Source: an uncultured Reyranella sp. (GTDB taxonomy: Bacteria; Pseudomonadota; Alphaproteobacteria; Reyranellales; Reyranellaceae). From it: a stretch of 33,793 nt of DNA. Under the pieces are notes generated by a model. It was not told where the DNA came from, made no database searches, and saw only the letters and a program-made list of their open reading frames with translations. The stretch is taken from positions 1-33,793 of the forward strand of contig CALDNT010000097.1 in NCBI GenBank assembly GCA_937915145.1. The letters are read 5' to 3'. The position numbers and the translations under genes were made by a program. Shown here piece by piece: positions 6,188 to 24,932 of this stretch (position 1 is the stretch's first letter; every line of letters begins with the position of its first letter).

Positions 6188-6613
6188 ATGGCCGACCCAG
6201 CAAAGAACTTCACCGACATGTTCAAAAGCCTCGGTGAGCAATTCAAGGTCCCAGCTTTCGACATGGCGAAACTCATGGAGAGCCACCAGAAAAACCTCGA
6301 GGCCATGACCAAGTCGTGGCAGGCGATGACGGGCGGCGCCAGCGCGGTTGCCACCAAGCAGCGCGAGATTTTCGAGGCGGCCATGAAGGACATGGCCGAG
6401 GTGGCGCAGGCCTATAAGCCGGGAGGCAGTCCGCAGGACGCGATGGCCAAGCAGGCCGAGTTCGCCAAGAAGGCGATGGAGGCGGTGATGGCCAACACCC
6501 GCGACATCGCCGAGCTGGTGCAGAAGTCGAGCACCGAGGCCTTCAAGATCGTGCAGGATAGGATGAAGGAATCCTATCAGGAAATTCAGACCAGCGTGGA
6601 CAAGAAGTCGTAG
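6188..6613 (+). CDS. phaP: Phasin family protein
   Basis: The 141-residue protein is almost entirely amphipathic helix rich in Ala, Lys, Glu and Met, with phasin-type segments such as AMTGGASAVATKQREIFEAA and FAKKAMEAVMANTRDIAELV. Phasins coat polyhydroxyalkanoate granules and control their number and size. There is no signal peptide or membrane segment. A very strong ribosome binding site, AAGGAGG, sits just before the ATG, suggesting high expression. It begins 15 bases after the DUF445 gene and may be read from the same transcript. The gene symbol is by family only: other alphaproteobacterial phasin-domain proteins exist, and no PHA synthase is present in this window. Confidence 0.85.
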   Translation: MADPAKNFTDMFKSLGEQFKVPAFDMAKLMESHQKNLEAMTKSWQAMTGGASAVATKQREIFEAAMKDMAEVAQAYKPGGSPQDAMAKQAEFAKKAMEAVMANTRDIAELVQKSSTEAFKIVQDRMKESYQEIQTSVDKKS

Positions 6614-14072: not shown

Positions 14073-14672
14073 CTAGCGGGCTGCGGCGATCGCGGTGATC
14101 ATCAGCGGAGTCGTCATGCCGATTACCACGTCGCCGACCTTGATCTTCTTCAGCATGTCCTGCTTGGCGATCGAGGTCGCGGAATAGGTGCGAACAGCGC
14201 CACCGCGACCGTCGATCACCGAAACCGTGTTGTTCGCCAGATCGACAGCGACCACGGTGAGCGTGAACCGTCCGGTTTCGATATCGAGCTGATTTGGCTT
14301 GGGGCTCATCTGGTCCTGGCGCGCTTCCCGCGAACCCGGACCTTTCTGGCGCAGGTTCAGCATGGTCACGACTTCAGTATAGGTCACGTTGGCCAGGGAA
14401 CCGTCGTCAATGGCGGCGAGGTTCGGTACGCCTGCGGCGACCGGCAGGAGCAGCAACCGGCCGGTGGGGAGGGTGAAGGCGACGGTACGGGTGTCGGGGT
14501 CAATCGTCTCGACCGTTACGCGGGCAGTCACGGTGTCGTTGAACGATACGCCCTCGCGCGGCACCGCCTGTATCTGTGCCGTAGCCTGCCGCTCGGGCAG
14601 ACCGATGCCTACCGCCAGCACCGCTGCAAATGTGGAAAAGCTCGCAGTCCACTTGATCGAACGGATAGTCAT
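14073..14672 (-). CDS. Hypothetical exported protein
   Basis: The 199-residue protein was not recognised. The N terminus MTIRSIKWTASFSTFAAVLAVGIG followed by ATAQ looks like a Sec signal peptide, so a periplasmic location is likely. The mature part reads as beta-rich: repeated strands such as VTARVTVETIDPDTRTVAFTL and FTLTVVAVDLANNTVSVIDG suggest two small beta domains of similar layout. The frame is open five codons further upstream from a GTG at 14687; the ATG at 14672 is preferred because GTGAGG lies before it and the signal peptide starts there. No cysteine is present in the mature part. It stands alone, convergent with DUF427 and divergent from ccr. Confidence 0.7.
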   Translation of the reverse strand: MTIRSIKWTASFSTFAAVLAVGIGLPERQATAQIQAVPREGVSFNDTVTARVTVETIDPDTRTVAFTLPTGRLLLLPVAAGVPNLAAIDDGSLANVTYTEVVTMLNLRQKGPGSREARQDQMSPKPNQLDIETGRFTLTVVAVDLANNTVSVIDGRGGAVRTYSATSIAKQDMLKKIKVGDVVIGMTTPLMITAIAAAR

Positions 14673-14842
14673 CGGCGTGTACCTCACAAAACCCTACCGC
14701 GCCGGACAATAGCGATCCGAAGCGGGCACGCAACACCGAACGCCGAGCCGGATTCATGCGAAATATACCCCACAATATGGAATTTCCGCCGGCGGCGGGT
14801 AATTTTATTGTTTTCCCCCTGCGTCATTCGTTCCGATTCGTA

Positions 14843-14874
14843 TTTTGTGCATTGCACTCTCGCTGTTGCAGCAA
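14843..14874. promoter_or_regulatory. TGC-rich palindromes upstream of ccr
   Basis: GTGCATTGCAC (14847-14857) has perfect 5-base arms around one base. Nine bases on, TTGCAGCAA (14866-14874) has perfect 4-base arms. The 9-mer TTTTGTGCA (14843-14851) recurs in the etfB leader at 22243-22251. TGC-rich palindromes recall the sites reported for PhaR-type regulators of polyhydroxybutyrate genes. The rest of 14673-14904 shows only a ribosome binding site (CAGGAGG) before ccr. Confidence 0.45.
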
Positions 14875-14904
14875 TAGTTTCGCTGCATCGCAGGAGGCTT
14901 TGCC

Positions 14905-16194
14905 ATGTCAGTTGTCGCTTTCGCGGCCCGCCCGCACCCGACGGCCAACCAGCCGCAGAAAGAACTCTACGAGGTCGGTGAAATTCCGCCGCTCGGCCAC
15001 GTGCCGAAGAACATGTACGCTTGGGTGATCCGGCGTGATCGCCACGGTCCGCCCGAGCAGTCCATGCAGCTCGAGGTCGTGCCCACGCACACCATCGGCG
15101 AAGACGAAGTGCTGGTCCTCGTGATGGCGGCCGGTGTCAATTACAACGGCGTCTGGGCGGGCCTCGGCCTGCCGATTTCGCCGTTCGACGTCCACAAGCA
15201 ACCGTTCCACATCGCCGGCTCCGATGCCTCGGGCATCGTCTGGGCGATCGGCGCCAAGGTGAAGCGCTGGAAGGTCGGCGACGAGGTCGTGGTCCACTGC
15301 AACCAGGACGATGGCGACGACGAGCAGTGCAACGGCGGCGACCCGATGTTTTCGACCAGCCAACGCATCTGGGGTTACGAAACGCCCGACGGTTCCTTCT
15401 CCCAGTTTTGCCGGGTGCAGGCGCGCCAGCTCATGAAGCGGCCGCAGCATCTCACCTGGGAGGAGAGCGCCTGCTACACGCTGACGCTGGCCACCGCCTA
15501 TCGCATGCTGTTCGGCCATCGCCCGCACATCCTGCGGCCCGGGCACAAGGTGCTGGTGTGGGGCGCAGCCGGCGGCATCGGTTCGATGGCGGTGCAGCTC
15601 ATCGCGACGGCCGGCGCCAACGCCATTGGTGTCATCTCCGATCCCTCGAAGACGGATTTCGTGATGTCGCTCGGCGCCAAGGGTGTCATCAACCGCAACG
15701 ACTTCGACTGCTGGGGCCAGCTCCCCGACGTCGACGATCAGAAGGGCTACGCGGAATACATGAAGAAGGTGCGCAAGTTCGGTGCCGCCATCTGGGAGCA
15801 CACCGGCAAGGGCAACGACGTCGACTTCGTGTTCGAGCATCCCGGCGAGCAGACCTTCCCGGTGTCGTGCAACATCGTGAAGCGCGGCGGCATGGTGGTG
15901 TTCTGCGCCGGCACGACCGGCTACAACCTCACCATGGACGCGCGCTTCGTGTGGATGCGCCAGAAGCGCATCCAGGGCAGCCACTTCGCCAACCTGCTGC
16001 AGGCGAGCCAGGCCAATCAGCTGGTGATCGAGCGTCGCATCGATCCCTGCATGAGCGAGGTCTTCGACTGGGCCGATATTCCCAAGGCCCACACCAAGAT
16101 GTGGAAGAACAAGCACAAGCCCGGAAACATGGCCGTGCTGGTCTCGTCCAAGCGGCCCGGCCTGCGCACTCTCGAAGACGCGCTCGAGGATTGA
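14905..16194 (+). CDS. ccr: Crotonyl-CoA carboxylase/reductase
   Basis: The enzyme reductively carboxylates crotonyl-CoA with NADPH and CO2 to ethylmalonyl-CoA, the committing step of the ethylmalonyl-CoA pathway. The 429 residues match the family length. Visible features are the N-terminal GEIPPLGHVPKNMYAWVIRR, the NYNGVWAG segment with Asn81, the medium-chain dehydrogenase nucleotide motif GAAGGIGSMAVQL (220-232), and RIQGSHFAN with His360; the Asn and His probably correspond to the CO2-contacting residues of studied enzymes. CAGGAGG precedes the ATG at 14905. The methylsuccinyl-CoA dehydrogenase gene starts 7 bases after its stop. Plain enoyl reductases lack this N-terminal extension. Confidence 0.95.
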   Translation: MSVVAFAARPHPTANQPQKELYEVGEIPPLGHVPKNMYAWVIRRDRHGPPEQSMQLEVVPTHTIGEDEVLVLVMAAGVNYNGVWAGLGLPISPFDVHKQPFHIAGSDASGIVWAIGAKVKRWKVGDEVVVHCNQDDGDDEQCNGGDPMFSTSQRIWGYETPDGSFSQFCRVQARQLMKRPQHLTWEESACYTLTLATAYRMLFGHRPHILRPGHKVLVWGAAGGIGSMAVQLIATAGANAIGVISDPSKTDFVMSLGAKGVINRNDFDCWGQLPDVDDQKGYAEYMKKVRKFGAAIWEHTGKGNDVDFVFEHPGEQTFPVSCNIVKRGGMVVFCAGTTGYNLTMDARFVWMRQKRIQGSHFANLLQASQANQLVIERRIDPCMSEVFDWADIPKAHTKMWKNKHKPGNMAVLVSSKRPGLRTLEDALED

Positions 16195-16201
16195 CCGGCT
16201 G

Positions 16202-17836
16202 ATGGTCGTTGAAAACCTGCTCGGCCTCGCCGCCGAGGCCGAGACTGCTGCCGACCGCTACGAGGCGGCGGCGCGCGAAGCGGTCCGCAAGCTGATTGCG
16301 CCCAAGGGCAAGGTCGATCCGGAGCTGCTGGAGCGCGAACAGTTTGCCGCCCACGGTTTTGCCTGGATCGCGACCTACGTCTCTGCAATTCGTCAGATGC
16401 GGCGCTGGGCCGAGGCAAGTGCGGCGGGCGAACTCGAGCAGCTCATCCTTCAGGTGGCTCTCGGCGAGTATCTCACCCAGCTCCAGGGCGGCATCGCCAT
16501 GAGCCAGGTCGAGATTGTACGGCCGGCCGACCTCGGCGCCGACGCAGAGGCGCTCGATACGCCTGCCGTCCGCAAGTTGATCGCGGCCAACACGTCGACC
16601 GCGAGGTTGCGCATCGCCGAACTGATCGCCGACGGCCTCGATACCGGCGACTTCGGTGCGCTCGCCCTTGGCGACGCGGCGCTGGAGGAAGTGCGCCGCC
16701 AGTTTCGCCGCTTCGTCGACGCCGAAGTCGGGCCGCATGCCCACGGCTGGCACCTGCGCGACGAGCTGATCCCGCTGCCGGTGGTGCAGCAGATGGCCGA
16801 GCTCGGCGTCTTTGGCCTTACCGTGCCGGAGGAGTGGGGCGGCCTCGGCATGGGCAAGCTCGCGATGTGCGTGGTCACCGAGGAACTGTCGCGCGGCTAT
16901 ATCGGCGTGGGCTCGCTCGGCACGCGCTCCGAGATCGCGGCCGAACTGATCCGCGCCGGCGGCACCGAGGACCAGAAGAAGCGATATCTTTCGCGCATCG
17001 CCTCGGGCGAGATTTTGCCGACGGCGGTGTTCACCGAACCCAACACCGGCTCCGACCTCGCGAGCCTGCGCACCCGCGCCGTGCTCGAGGGCGACACCTA
17101 CAGGATCAACGGCAACAAGACCTGGATCACCCACGCCGCCCGCGCCGATATCATGACCTTGCTGGCGCGCAGTGATGCGTCGAAGCCCGGCTACAAGGGC
17201 CTGTCGATGTTCCTGGCCGAGAAACCCCGGGGCGACGAGGCCGATCCGTTCCCCGCCGAGGGCATGAGCGGCGGCGAGATCCGCGTGCTGGGCTACCGCG
17301 GCATGAAGGAATACGAGATCGGCTTCGACGGTTTCGAGGTGCCGGCGGCCAACCTGCTGGGCGGCAAGGAGGGCCAGGGTTTCAAACAGCTCATGGCGAC
17401 CTTCGAGAGCGCGCGTATCCAGACCGCGGCGCGTGCCGTCGGGGTGGCGCAGAATGCGCTCGAACTCGGCCTGCGCTACGCCAAGGACCGCATCCAGTTC
17501 GGCAAGCCGCTCTATGCCTTCCCGCGTGTCGCCGGCAAGATCGCCTGGATGGCGGTCGAGACCATGATCGCCCGCCAGCTCACCTACTTTGCGGCGCGTG
17601 AAAAGGACCAGGACCGCCGCTGCGACATCGAGGCCGGCATGGCCAAGTTGCTGGCCGCGCGCGTCGCCTGGAGCAACGCCGACAATGCGCTGCAGATCCA
17701 CGGCGGCAACGGCTATGCGATGGAATATCCCATCAGTCGCGTGCTGTGCGACGCCCGCATCCTCAACATCTTCGAGGGTGCGGCCGAGATCCAGGCGCAG
17801 GTCGTGTGCCGCGGGCTGCTCGAGGGCCGGAACTAG
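16202..17836 (+). CDS. mcd: (2S)-methylsuccinyl-CoA dehydrogenase
   Basis: This 544-residue flavoprotein is an acyl-CoA dehydrogenase with an N-terminal helical extension of about 150 residues, typical of methylsuccinyl-CoA dehydrogenase. The core has FGLTVPEEWGG, the substrate/FAD loop TEPNTGSDLASLRTRA, KTWITHAARAD, and the C-terminal IHGGNGYAMEYP and IFEGAAEIQ, where Glu525 sits at the position of the catalytic base of many relatives. It oxidises methylsuccinyl-CoA to mesaconyl-CoA in the ethylmalonyl-CoA pathway and gives electrons to ETF. It lies 7 bases after ccr, so the pair is one operon, and this context supports the specific call over isovaleryl-type dehydrogenases. Confidence 0.9.
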   Translation: MVVENLLGLAAEAETAADRYEAAAREAVRKLIAPKGKVDPELLEREQFAAHGFAWIATYVSAIRQMRRWAEASAAGELEQLILQVALGEYLTQLQGGIAMSQVEIVRPADLGADAEALDTPAVRKLIAANTSTARLRIAELIADGLDTGDFGALALGDAALEEVRRQFRRFVDAEVGPHAHGWHLRDELIPLPVVQQMAELGVFGLTVPEEWGGLGMGKLAMCVVTEELSRGYIGVGSLGTRSEIAAELIRAGGTEDQKKRYLSRIASGEILPTAVFTEPNTGSDLASLRTRAVLEGDTYRINGNKTWITHAARADIMTLLARSDASKPGYKGLSMFLAEKPRGDEADPFPAEGMSGGEIRVLGYRGMKEYEIGFDGFEVPAANLLGGKEGQGFKQLMATFESARIQTAARAVGVAQNALELGLRYAKDRIQFGKPLYAFPRVAGKIAWMAVETMIARQLTYFAAREKDQDRRCDIEAGMAKLLAARVAWSNADNALQIHGGNGYAMEYPISRVLCDARILNIFEGAAEIQAQVVCRGLLEGRN

Positions 17837-21598: not shown

Positions 21599-22195
21599 AT
21601 GGCGGTCAATCTCACCCGCATCTACACGCGCGGCGGCGACGCCGGGCAGACTTCTCTTGGCCGTGGCGAGCGCGTTGCCAAGCACGATATCCGCGTCGAG
21701 GCCTATGGGACGGTCGACGAAACCAATTCAGTCATCGGTCTTGCCCGCAGCGCCATCGCCCATGCCATTCTCGGCGATCCTCGTTTTGGCGAAGCGGCCG
21801 CGATGCTCGGCCGCATCCAGAACGATCTGTTCGACCTCGGCGCCGATCTTTGCACGCCCGAGGGCCAGGCCAAGCGCGGCGAGGGCGCGCTGCGCATCGT
21901 GCCAAGCCAGGTCGAGCGTCTGGAAAAGGAGATCGACGCCATGAACGCCGAACTCGCACCGCTCAAGTCGTTCATTCTGCCCGGTGGCAGCGAGGTCGCG
22001 GCCCGGCTGCATCTTGCCCGTACGATCGCGCGCCGCGCCGAACGCTGCGTGACCCGTCTCGCGGTCGAACAGGCGATCAACCCTGAGGCGATCAAGTACA
22101 TCAATCGTCTCTCCGATCATTTGTTCGTGCTGGCGCGGCGGCTCAACGACAATGGTGCGGCCGATGTTCTGTGGGTGCCGGGGGGTGGGCGTTAG
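21599..22195 (+). CDS. PduO-type ATP:cob(I)alamin adenosyltransferase
   Basis: The enzyme adenosylates cob(I)alamin to coenzyme B12, needed by ethylmalonyl-CoA and methylmalonyl-CoA mutases. The 198 residues show the PduO signature TRGGDAGQTSLGRGERVAKHD at the N terminus, then EAYGTVDETNS, and the C-terminal ARTIARRAERCVTRL with the conserved Arg and Glu. It differs from the CobA type. The ATG at 21599 lies 4 bases after the HIG1 stop. Its place between ccr/mcd and etfBA-hbd makes sense, because the ethylmalonyl-CoA pathway contains two B12-dependent mutases, though neither mutase gene is in this window. Confidence 0.92.
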   Translation: MAVNLTRIYTRGGDAGQTSLGRGERVAKHDIRVEAYGTVDETNSVIGLARSAIAHAILGDPRFGEAAAMLGRIQNDLFDLGADLCTPEGQAKRGEGALRIVPSQVERLEKEIDAMNAELAPLKSFILPGGSEVAARLHLARTIARRAERCVTRLAVEQAINPEAIKYINRLSDHLFVLARRLNDNGAADVLWVPGGGR

Positions 22196-22236: not shown

Positions 22237-22271
22237 CTGCGGTTTTGTGCAGCGCGACATAGTCTTGACAT
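22237..22271 (+). promoter_or_regulatory. Candidate regulatory region of etfBA
   Basis: Within the etfB leader, CTGC (22237-22240) and GCAG (22249-22252) form an inverted pair, and TTTTGTGCA (22243-22251) is identical to the 9-mer over the ccr palindrome. A -35-like TTGACA lies at 22266-22271, but no good -10 is found 17 bases downstream, so the promoter itself is unsettled. Confidence 0.35.
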
Positions 22272-22350
22272 GATCGCCTGAGGACCCGTACACGAAAAAC
22301 CCTTCGCCGGGCGGGTGGTCCGGCCGCAACTCACCAATAGGCGCAACGCG

Positions 22351-23100
22351 ATGAAAGTGCTGGTCGCGGTCAAGCGGGTCATCGACTACAACGTCAAGAT
22401 CCGCGTAAAGGCCGACAACACGGGTGTCGAGACGGCGAACGTCAAGATGTCCATGAATCCCTTCGACGAGATCGCCGTGGAAGAGGCGCTCCGCATGAAG
22501 GAGAAGGGCCTCGCGACCGAGGTCATCGTCTTTTCCGCCGGCCTTGCCCAATGCCAGGAAACGATTCGGACCGCCTTGGCGATGGGCGCCGACCGTGGTG
22601 TTCTTGTCCAGACCGATACTGAACTGCAACCGCTGGCGGTCGCCAAGCTCCTGAAGGCCGTGGTCGACAAGGAACAGCCCGGTCTGGTGATTGTCGGCAA
22701 GCAGGCGATCGACGACGATTCCAACCAGACCGGCCAGATGCTGGCCGCGCTCCTCGGTTGGTCGCAGGGTACGTTTGCCAACAAGCTCAACATCGCCGAC
22801 GGTTCGGCCGAGGTGAAGCGGGAGGTCGACGGCGGTCTCGAGAACATCAAGATCAAGCTGCCGGCGGTGATCACCACCGACCTGCGCCTCAACGAGCCGC
22901 GCTATGCGTCGTTGCCCAACATCATGAAGGCCAAGAAGAAGCCGATCGAGGTTCTGGCGCCCGACGCGCTGGGCGTCGATATTGCACCGCGCCTGAAGAC
23001 GCTCAAGGTCGAGGAGCCGCCCAAGCGCAAGGCCGGTATCAAGGTGAAGTCCGTGGCGGAACTGATCGACAAGCTGCGCAACGAAGCGGGAGTGATCTGA
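22351..23100 (+). CDS. etfB: Electron transfer flavoprotein beta subunit
   Basis: This 249-residue subunit binds AMP and pairs with EtfA to carry electrons from acyl-CoA dehydrogenases to the quinone pool. The N terminus [20 protein letters not shown] is diagnostic. The conserved [22 protein letters not shown] lies around residues 112-133, and [14 protein letters not shown] near the end is the recognition-loop region. The frame is open to 22315, but the ATG at 22351 gives the standard N terminus and length. The ribosome binding site is weak. The 155-base leader (22196-22350) has TTTTGTGCA at 22243, a CTGC/GCAG inverted pair and TTGACA at 22266. etfA follows after one base. Confidence 0.95.
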
Positions 23101-23101
23101 A

Positions 23102-24037
23102 ATGGCCGTTCTCGTGGTTGCCGCACATGACGGCAAGACTGTTCGCGCCAATGTCGCCAACGCCGTGACGGCGGCGGCGCAGATGGATCCCGACGTGCAC
23201 GTGCTGGTCGCCGGCAGCGGTGCCGACGAGGCTGCGAAGTCCGCTGCAGCGCTCCAGGGCGTCGCCAAGGTGCTTCACGTCGAGGACGCGGCCTATGCCA
23301 ACTGGCTCGCCGAAGATATCGCACCGCTCATCGTCAAGCTGGCGCCGGCCTACGGCCATGTCGTGATGGCCGCCGACTCTGTCGGCAAGAACGTCGCACC
23401 GCGCGTCGCCGCGCTGCTTGATGTGGCGCAGGTTTCCGAAGCCATCCAGGTCGTCTCGCCCGACACCTTCGTGCGGCCGATCTATGCCGGCAACGCCATG
23501 GCGACGGTGCAGTCGGCCGACAAGATCAAGATCGTGACGATCCGCCCGACCAACTTCAAGGCGGCCGCTACAGGCGGTTCGGCGGCGGTCGAAAAAGCCG
23601 ATGCTGCCAGCGCTGCGGGCCTGTCGACGTTCGTCGGTGCCGAGCTTTCCAGGAGCGAGCGGCCCGAACTTACCAGCGCCAAGATCGTCGTTTCCGGCGG
23701 CCGTGGCCTGGCCAGCGGCGAGAATTTCAAGATGCTCGAGACGCTGGCGGACAAGCTTGGTGCAGGGCTCGGCGCCAGCCGCGCCGCCGTCGATGCCGGC
23801 TACGTGCCGAACGACTACCAGGTCGGCCAGACCGGCAAGGTGGTCGCGCCCGACCTCTATATCGCCATCGGCATCTCCGGTGCGATCCAGCATCTCGCCG
23901 GCATGAAGGACAGCAAGACCATCGTTGCCATCAACAAGGACGAGGAAGCGCCGATCTTCCAGGTGGCCGACTATGGCATCGTCGGCGATCTGTTCCAGAT
24001 CGTTCCGGAACTGACAGCAGCGGTCGAAAAGAAGTAA
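23102..24037 (+). CDS. etfA: Electron transfer flavoprotein alpha subunit
   Basis: The 311-residue protein is the FAD-binding subunit of ETF. The C-terminal half shows the family fold: [37 protein letters not shown], and [10 protein letters not shown] near residue 259, which holds the flavin, followed by [21 protein letters not shown]. It receives electrons from Mcd and other acyl-CoA dehydrogenases through EtfB and passes them to ETF:ubiquinone oxidoreductase, which is not in this window. It lies one base after etfB and 22 bases before hbd, so the three genes form an operon. The N-terminal VVAAHDG and length are standard. Confidence 0.95.
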
Positions 24038-24059: not shown

Positions 24060-24932
24060 ATGATCAAGCGCATCGGCATCATCGGTGCCGGCCAGATGGG
24101 CAGCGGTATCGCCCACGTCTGCGCGCTCAAGGGGTTCGACATCCGTCTTGCCGATGTCGACCAGGCGCATATCGACAAGGGCATCGATGCCATCAACCGC
24201 AACATGGACCGGCAGATCGGTCGCGGCATGATCCGGCCGGAAGACAAGGACGCGGCGCTCAAGCGCATTTCGACGGCGCTCGATTACAAGCCGTTTGCCG
24301 ACTGCGATCTGATCGTCGAGGCCGCGACCGAAAACGAGGCGGTGAAGCGCGAAATCTTCAAGAAGGTCTGCGTCGACCTGCCGTCGAACGTCCTGCTTGC
24401 CACCAACACCTCGTCGATCTCCGTGACGCGCCTGGCGGCGGTGACCGACCGGCCCGGCAAGTTCATGGGCATGCATTTCATGAACCCCGTGCCGATGATG
24501 GGGCTGGTCGAGCTGATCCGGGGCATCGCCACGGAGGAAGAGACCTTCCGCACGGTACGGGAGGTCGTGGTCAAGCTCGAGAAGAAGCCGGTCAATGCCG
24601 AGGATTTCCCGGCCTTCATCGTCAACCGCATCCTGCTGCCGATGATCAACGAGGCGGTCTATGCTCTCTACGAGGGCGTGGCGAACGTCGAGGCGATCGA
24701 CACCGGCATGAAGCTCGGCGCCAACCATCCCATGGGCCCGCTCGAACTGGCAGATTTCATTGGCCTCGATACCTGCCTGTCGGTCATGCAGGTGCTGCAC
24801 GAGGGCTTGGCCGATTCCAAGTACCGGCCGTGCCCGCTGCTGACGAAGTACGTCGAGGCCGGGTGGATCGGGCGCAAGGTCAAGCGCGGCTTCTATGACT
24901 ATTCAGGCGAGCGTCCGGTTCCCACTCGATAG
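24060..24932 (+). CDS. hbd: 3-hydroxyacyl-CoA (3-hydroxybutyryl-CoA) dehydrogenase
   Basis: The 290-residue enzyme converts (S)-3-hydroxybutyryl-CoA and acetoacetyl-CoA with NAD(H). The N-terminal GIIGAGQMGSGIAH is the dinucleotide motif. The catalytic region shows NTSSISVTRLA, MGMHFMNPVPMM with the active-site His, and FIVNRILLPMINEA. The C-terminal domain contains LGANHPMGPLELADFIGLD, typical of the short FadB2/PaaH/Hbd type. It follows etfA by 22 bases. In this setting it may feed C4 acyl-CoA for ccr or act in butyrate and hydroxybutyrate metabolism. Its product is the S isomer, whereas PHB synthesis uses R. The length is normal. Confidence 0.93.
   Translation: MIKRIGIIGAGQMGSGIAHVCALKGFDIRLADVDQAHIDKGIDAINRNMDRQIGRGMIRPEDKDAALKRISTALDYKPFADCDLIVEAATENEAVKREIFKKVCVDLPSNVLLATNTSSISVTRLAAVTDRPGKFMGMHFMNPVPMMGLVELIRGIATEEETFRTVREVVVKLEKKPVNAEDFPAFIVNRILLPMINEAVYALYEGVANVEAIDTGMKLGANHPMGPLELADFIGLDTCLSVMQVLHEGLADSKYRPCPLLTKYVEAGWIGRKVKRGFYDYSGERPVPTR

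Follow-up and report, generated by a model that had tools for sequence, protein, structure and literature searches.

Predicted PhaR-like operators before ccr and etfBA in an ethylmalonyl-CoA gene neighbourhood of Reyranella

The stretch of DNA analysed here (the window) is one whole contig of 33,793 bp (CALDNT010000097.1) in the 4.77-Mb genome of an uncultured Reyranella sp. (GenBank assembly GCA_937915145.1). Between positions 14905 and 24932, about 10 kb of the forward strand includes genes for crotonyl-CoA carboxylase/reductase (ccr), an acyl-CoA dehydrogenase, a cobalamin adenosyltransferase, the electron transfer flavoprotein (etfBA) and 3-hydroxybutyryl-CoA dehydrogenase (hbd), an ethylmalonyl-CoA neighbourhood. 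The ccr gene (14905..16194; TIGR01751, 608 bits) encodes a protein sharing 94–95% identity with those of Reyranella relatives and 95–96% with those of two further MAGs. The gene 7 bp 3’ of it (16202..17836) encodes a 544 aa acyl-CoA dehydrogenase, presumably methylsuccinyl-CoA dehydrogenase, although it reached no equivalog model. The gene for a PduO-type cobalamin adenosyltransferase (21599..22195; TIGR00636, 190 bits) lies immediately 5’ of the etfB leader. etfB (22351..23100; 24 same-genus orthologues including that of the window) and etfA (23102..24037) match ETF beta and alpha models below their cut-offs, and are followed by hbd (24060..24932; NF005715, 518 bits, over the cut-off). In many same-genus genomes, too, ccr and etfB are found on one contig. 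A phasin gene (TIGR01841, 72 bits) is present on the same strand at 6188..6613.

Two palindromes had been placed 31–58 bases before the ccr start by the initial annotation, and these coordinates were confirmed: GTGCATTGCAC occupies 14847-14857, 48–58 bases 5’ of the start at 14905, and TTGCAGCAA occupies 14866-14874, 31–39 bases 5’ of it. The 9-mer TTTTGTGCA, said to recur before etfB, indeed has exactly two copies in the window, one spanning 14843-14851 and the other 22243-22251; shuffled windows contained a mean of 0.04 copies, and two copies were reached in 0 of 100 shuffles. A further element, TAATTTTATTGT, is located at 14800-14815, some 45 bp 5’ of the ccr site; it occurs in all 22 same-genus ccr leaders and has a terminator-like stem standing 5’ of it. 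The divergent gene (14073-14687) may be the one to which this element belongs.

It had been proposed that the 9-mer marks a regulon site of PhaR type. The published PhaR motif of Sinorhizobium meliloti is WNWD2NYGCRNYGCRNH2WNW (PMC12542648), and a symmetrised matrix was derived from 25 PhaR sites of this organism tested by EMSA, 17 bound efficiently and 8 weakly (PMC12542648). Scanning of the whole window with this matrix supported the proposal, as exactly the ccr and etfB leaders took the first two ranks: the best site starts at 14842 before ccr (18.3 bits) and the second at 22242 before etfB (17.0 bits), while the third reaches 10.0 bits, a gap of 7 bits below the etfB box. Simulated DNA of the same composition gave 0.03 sites of at least 17 bits per window and 4.6 per genome. 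The core NYGCRNYGCRN is matched by GTGCATTGCAC, by GTGCAGCGCGA in the etfB leader and by another element before ccr, CTGCATCGCAG. Read against the published arms WNWDD...HHWNW, the ccr box has one outer mismatch (the last W is G) and the etfB box two; the inner positions fit in both.

The bare core YGCRNYGCR turns up often at the 65% G+C of this genome. Its 42 copies in the window are no excess over the 63 expected, and it was dropped as evidence; the signal is thus carried by the T-rich or AT-rich arm and the TGCA letters. In the genome, GTGCANTGCAC occurs exactly at four places and, with at most one mismatch, at 107; the reversed pattern gives 49. One copy of GTGCATTGCAC, on contig C66, falls inside a sigma-factor-like ORF, in its opening 30 bp when the ORF is read at its longest.

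The predicted PhaR-like box of the ccr leader, with GTGCATTGCAC as its core, spans 14842..14862 on the forward strand and encloses a putative -35 hexamer, TTGCAC (14852..14857), which is paired with a putative -10 hexamer, TAGTTT (14875..14880). A consensus RNA polymerase promoter scan of this leader called no promoter and missed both hexamers, which were recognised by the pattern TTGCA[AC]-N17-TANNYT, present in 22 of 22 same-genus ccr leaders. The second PhaR-like core, CTGCATCGCAG (14883..14893, forward strand), had been missed by the initial annotation; it lies 36 bp from the first box, overlaps the Shine-Dalgarno stretch and, at 7.4 bits, is too weak to call by itself. Its sequence is exactly CTGC-N3-GCAG, which we take to be the site of the PhaR proteins of Paracoccus denitrificans and Rhodobacter sphaeroides; the TGC-rich PhaR sites of these species are described at phasin and phaR promoters and, to our knowledge, not for ccr. 

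The predicted box of the etfB leader spans 22242..22262 on the forward strand, with its core GTGCAGCGCGA at 22247-22257. Just 3’ of it, the alignment of etfB leaders disclosed a putative promoter TTGACA-N18-TACACG on the same strand, with the -35 hexamer at 22265..22270 and the -10 at 22289-22294; a consensus promoter scan of this leader called none. The boxes of both leaders are within 100 bp of a start codon and adjoin conserved hexamers, at places where consensus promoter scans were negative.

Both boxes are conserved within the genus. Of the 29 ccr loci in the set of relatives, scoring covered 27, the partial matches L124 and L125 being left out, as was the paralogue L126. All 22 same-genus ccr leaders, window included, retain the box, with scores of 14.0–19.4 bits and positions of -52 to -57 from the start, and the etfB box is retained in 24 of 24, with at least 16.0 bits. 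The second YGCRNYGCR core stands 35–37 bp 3’ of the first box in 17 of the 22 ccr leaders, where it occurs in nine spellings that all retain YGCRNYGCR, and is missing from the remaining five. The palindrome TTGCAGCAA (14866..14874, forward strand) did not hold up as a conserved site: it was found in 1 of 22 leaders, YGCARCAATA being present at that place in all 22, and was rejected as an operator, its palindromic form being particular to the window.

The same boxes were sought elsewhere in the genome by scoring 20 stretches from the matches listed for two patterns (the first 100 of 144 for one and of 127 for the other). The expectation that such sites would precede further PHB and acyl-CoA genes was borne out in part; among such genes, phaC, phaA/B, mch, mcl and pcc were not located. 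Two boxes (27.9 and 20.6 bits) flank a TTGACT/TAAATT-like promoter before a second phasin gene (TIGR01841; G000:C94:43851), and PhaZ is preceded by a box of 19.1 bits. Two boxes of 16.4 and 16.2 bits, 22 bp apart, lie at -86 and -64 from the likely true start of a gene on contig C220. Against a methylmalonyl-CoA mutase model with a cut-off of 876 bits this gene scores 555, well short of it, while a fragment of 456 residues on C102 scores 808; by exclusion, we take the gene to be ethylmalonyl-CoA-mutase-like (ecm-like). The leader of phaR itself holds a weak box of 11.7 bits. No box was found in the mcm leader (best score 2.6 bits), and mcm was rejected as a regulon member. So was the phasin of the window, to which the initial annotation had pointed; its leader reaches -1.2 at best. 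The genome hence holds two phasin genes, that on C94 with strong PhaR-like boxes and that at 6188-6613 without any.

Other predicted boxes precede a family III CoA-transferase gene (17.4 bits), a gene for a periplasmic binding protein (16.4 bits) and a DksA-like gene (16.0 bits, with a second site of 23.4 bits further upstream; G000:C65:3702-3790, L218), and one site of 19.6 bits on C229 has no identified gene beside it. A box of 26.0 bits (G000:C128:23303; L219 2002) is located 33 bp before dusB (nifR3) in a dusB-ntrB arrangement, the ORF after dusB being ntrB-like as named by eye. Nitrogen regulation, too, may receive input from PHB status by way of dusB-ntrB.

Conservation was followed across Alphaproteobacteria in the best 80 of 595 candidate ccr loci, picked by protein similarity only. 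One locus, L083, was without a leader and was excluded; six of the 79 usable leaders are Reyranella-like, some of them from genomes also in the same-genus set. A box of at least 12 bits was present in 74 of the 79 (68 of 73 without the six Reyranella-like loci) and of at least 14 bits in 70, compared with 28 of 858 among the other leaders of these loci, those overlapping the ccr leader being set aside; the background becomes 76 of 912 if divergent neighbours sharing the ccr leader are counted. The motif is thus commoner before these acyl-CoA genes than elsewhere, as had been anticipated. With 100 symmetric position-permuted matrices, a mean of 6 and a maximum of 21 of the 79 ccr leaders scored above each matrix’s own 3% background; the real matrix gave 71. 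In a de novo count, made with no matrix, TGCA-N1-TGCA headed the palindromes over-represented in ccr leaders, being present in 31 of 79 compared with 32 of 912.

The control leaders near ccr reached 12 bits in 0 of 25 cases for etfA, 0 of 23 for hbd, 4 of 70 for acyl-CoA dehydrogenase, 1 of 31 for the adenosyltransferase and 0 of 4 for argH. For etfB leaders near class ccr loci the figure was 14 of 27, one Reyranella locus included, and for those outside the genus in the set of relatives 3 of 6 (L152, L153 and L156; below in L151, L154 and L155). Among ecm leaders 58 of 66 had a box of at least 12 bits, in 51 of them at a site common to ccr. As ccr and ecm diverge from one intergenic region in 55 of the 66 loci, a box in such a region is not assignable to ccr alone; separate ecm leaders had a box in 6 of 11. 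Five of the 79 ccr leaders fell below 12 bits, of which L042, L069 and L078 have ecm leaders below 12 bits as well, while ecm is preceded by a box in L031 and L091.

The genome search yielded one phaR gene, on the minus strand at C78:11177-11359 (PF07879, 3.5e-30; TIGR01848, 148.7 bits, over the cut-off). Genomes of 50 of the 80 class loci were queried for the regulator and 49 have it; the exception, L061, is a MAG in which a strong ccr box (21.9 bits) was found and PhaR was not. Since nearly all of these genomes have PhaR, co-occurrence in box-bearing genomes is uninformative, and PhaR-less genomes were sought instead. PhaR was present in 242 of 387 class genomes, and 7 of 144 PhaR-less genomes searched contained a strong ccr match. 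The box was absent from all seven, no leader exceeding 5.3 bits, against its presence in 74 of 79 class leaders (Fisher p 1.5e-7), although the seven amount to about three independent cases because five come from one family. One of the seven matches, with 50% identity and from a genome whose listed contamination is 6%, is perhaps not orthologous, and on both counts the contrast is no more than suggestive.

Considered together, the sequences make it very probable that the sites before ccr and etfBA-hbd are operators of PhaR, a transcription factor that binds PHB granules, and that these granules, by titrating PhaR, would bring about joint derepression of these genes with the ecm-like gene, the phasin and the depolymerase. 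The sites and their places before the genes are seen directly in the sequence; PhaR is named as the binder on the strength of an independent motif tested by gel shift and of the co-occurrence, from which we infer it. Both the direction of regulation and the role of PHB as its signal are carried over, by analogy, from the published model, in which PHB sequesters PhaR and so relieves repression (PMC12542648).

The thought that the palindromes arose by chance, raised at the outset, draws on how common the bare core is, with 42 occurrences in the window where 63 are expected; the first and second ranks in the window, the simulation, the conservation in genus and class and the permuted-matrix control all speak against it, and it was rejected as scarcely credible. 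The sites could instead belong to another acyl-CoA regulator, either a TetR activator of CcrR type or a CoA-ester sensor of ScfR/RamB type, and resemble PhaR sites by convergence. CcrR does activate ccr in Methylorubrum extorquens (as cited in PMC4207312), and RamB, an ScfR factor, binds CoA esters of the ethylmalonyl-CoA pathway in Paracoccus (PMC10370305). Yet the motif was recovered with a matrix from PhaR sites alone, and here it also precedes a phasin gene and the PHB depolymerase gene, classical targets of PhaR. Sites of RamB type, moreover, comprise a pair of near-identical boxes separated by 18 bp (PMC10370305), a layout that does not fit the ccr cores, which are 36 bp apart from centre to centre in the window and 35–37 bp in the genus, with the second missing in 5 of 22 leaders. 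Convergence of this kind is improbable.

A larger share of doubt, still well short of an even chance, attaches to the reading that PhaR does bind both leaders but chiefly activates, or only fine-tunes expression with no switching by PHB. Because the etfB box stands before the putative -35, PhaR could act there in either direction, and PhaR proteins that activate are on record: both activation and repression are reported for that of Bradyrhizobium diazoefficiens (PMC10888616), and that of Ralstonia eutropha activates phaP3 (PMC12849132). At ccr, on the other hand, the putative -35 is inside the box and the second core falls near the transcription start, a repressor layout, so that repression by occlusion is favoured; in S. 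meliloti, the motif stands before only seven PhaR-activated genes (PMC12542648). PhaR probably acts on the ethylmalonyl-CoA pathway as a repressor.

Under repression relieved by PHB, free PhaR in the cytoplasm would bind the ccr and etfBA-hbd operators; at ccr, it would occlude the putative -35 from the main box and, with the weaker second box at the transcription start, block transcription. PHB synthesis and the ethylmalonyl-CoA pathway use the same pool of 3-hydroxybutyryl-CoA. As PHB builds up, granules would titrate PhaR off, and ccr, the dehydrogenase gene downstream, etfBA-hbd and the distant ecm-like gene would be derepressed together with the phasin and depolymerase genes. The higher levels of Ccr, dehydrogenase, EtfBA-Hbd and Ecm would then open a drain for the shared C4 pool.

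PhaR boxes, PHB sensing and wide PhaR regulons are already known. The boxes described here resemble the PhaR/AniA operators of S. meliloti (phaP1, phaP2, phaZ, zwf, gltA; PMC12542648) in the 21-bp palindrome with the core NYGCRNYGCRN and, save for one or two outer positions, AT-rich arms, in the occurrence of single or paired boxes around the -35, here a putative one, and in the phasin and depolymerase targets common to both; they differ in that here ccr, etfBA and an ecm-like gene are among the predicted targets, and the main text of PMC12542648 contains neither the word “ethylmalonyl” nor “electron transfer flavoprotein”. Repeated TGC and TGC-rich character are shared with the PhaR sites of P. 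denitrificans and R. sphaeroides (as cited in PMC10888616). In M. extorquens, a phaR mutant was altered in the partitioning of acetyl-CoA flux (Korotkova 2002, as cited in PMC6520949), a phenotype cited there with no operator described for ccr, ecm or etf. Searches of open-access literature turned up nothing on PhaR sites at, or PhaR action on, ccr, ecm or etfBA.

The conserved sites suggest that carbon storage and the ccr pathway of carbon assimilation are placed under one switch. For the class as a whole, the chances lean slightly towards PhaR being a general switch between PHB load and the ethylmalonyl-CoA pathway, acting through ccr-ecm and etfBA operators at the 3-hydroxybutyryl/crotonyl-CoA branch and, in Reyranella, also on dusB-ntrB. 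PhaR-like operators before ccr, ecm and etfBA would offer a direct and testable mechanism for the split of acetyl-CoA between storage and assimilation in alphaproteobacteria, and the predicted operators may serve as a handle for engineering PHB or products derived from the ethylmalonyl-CoA pathway.
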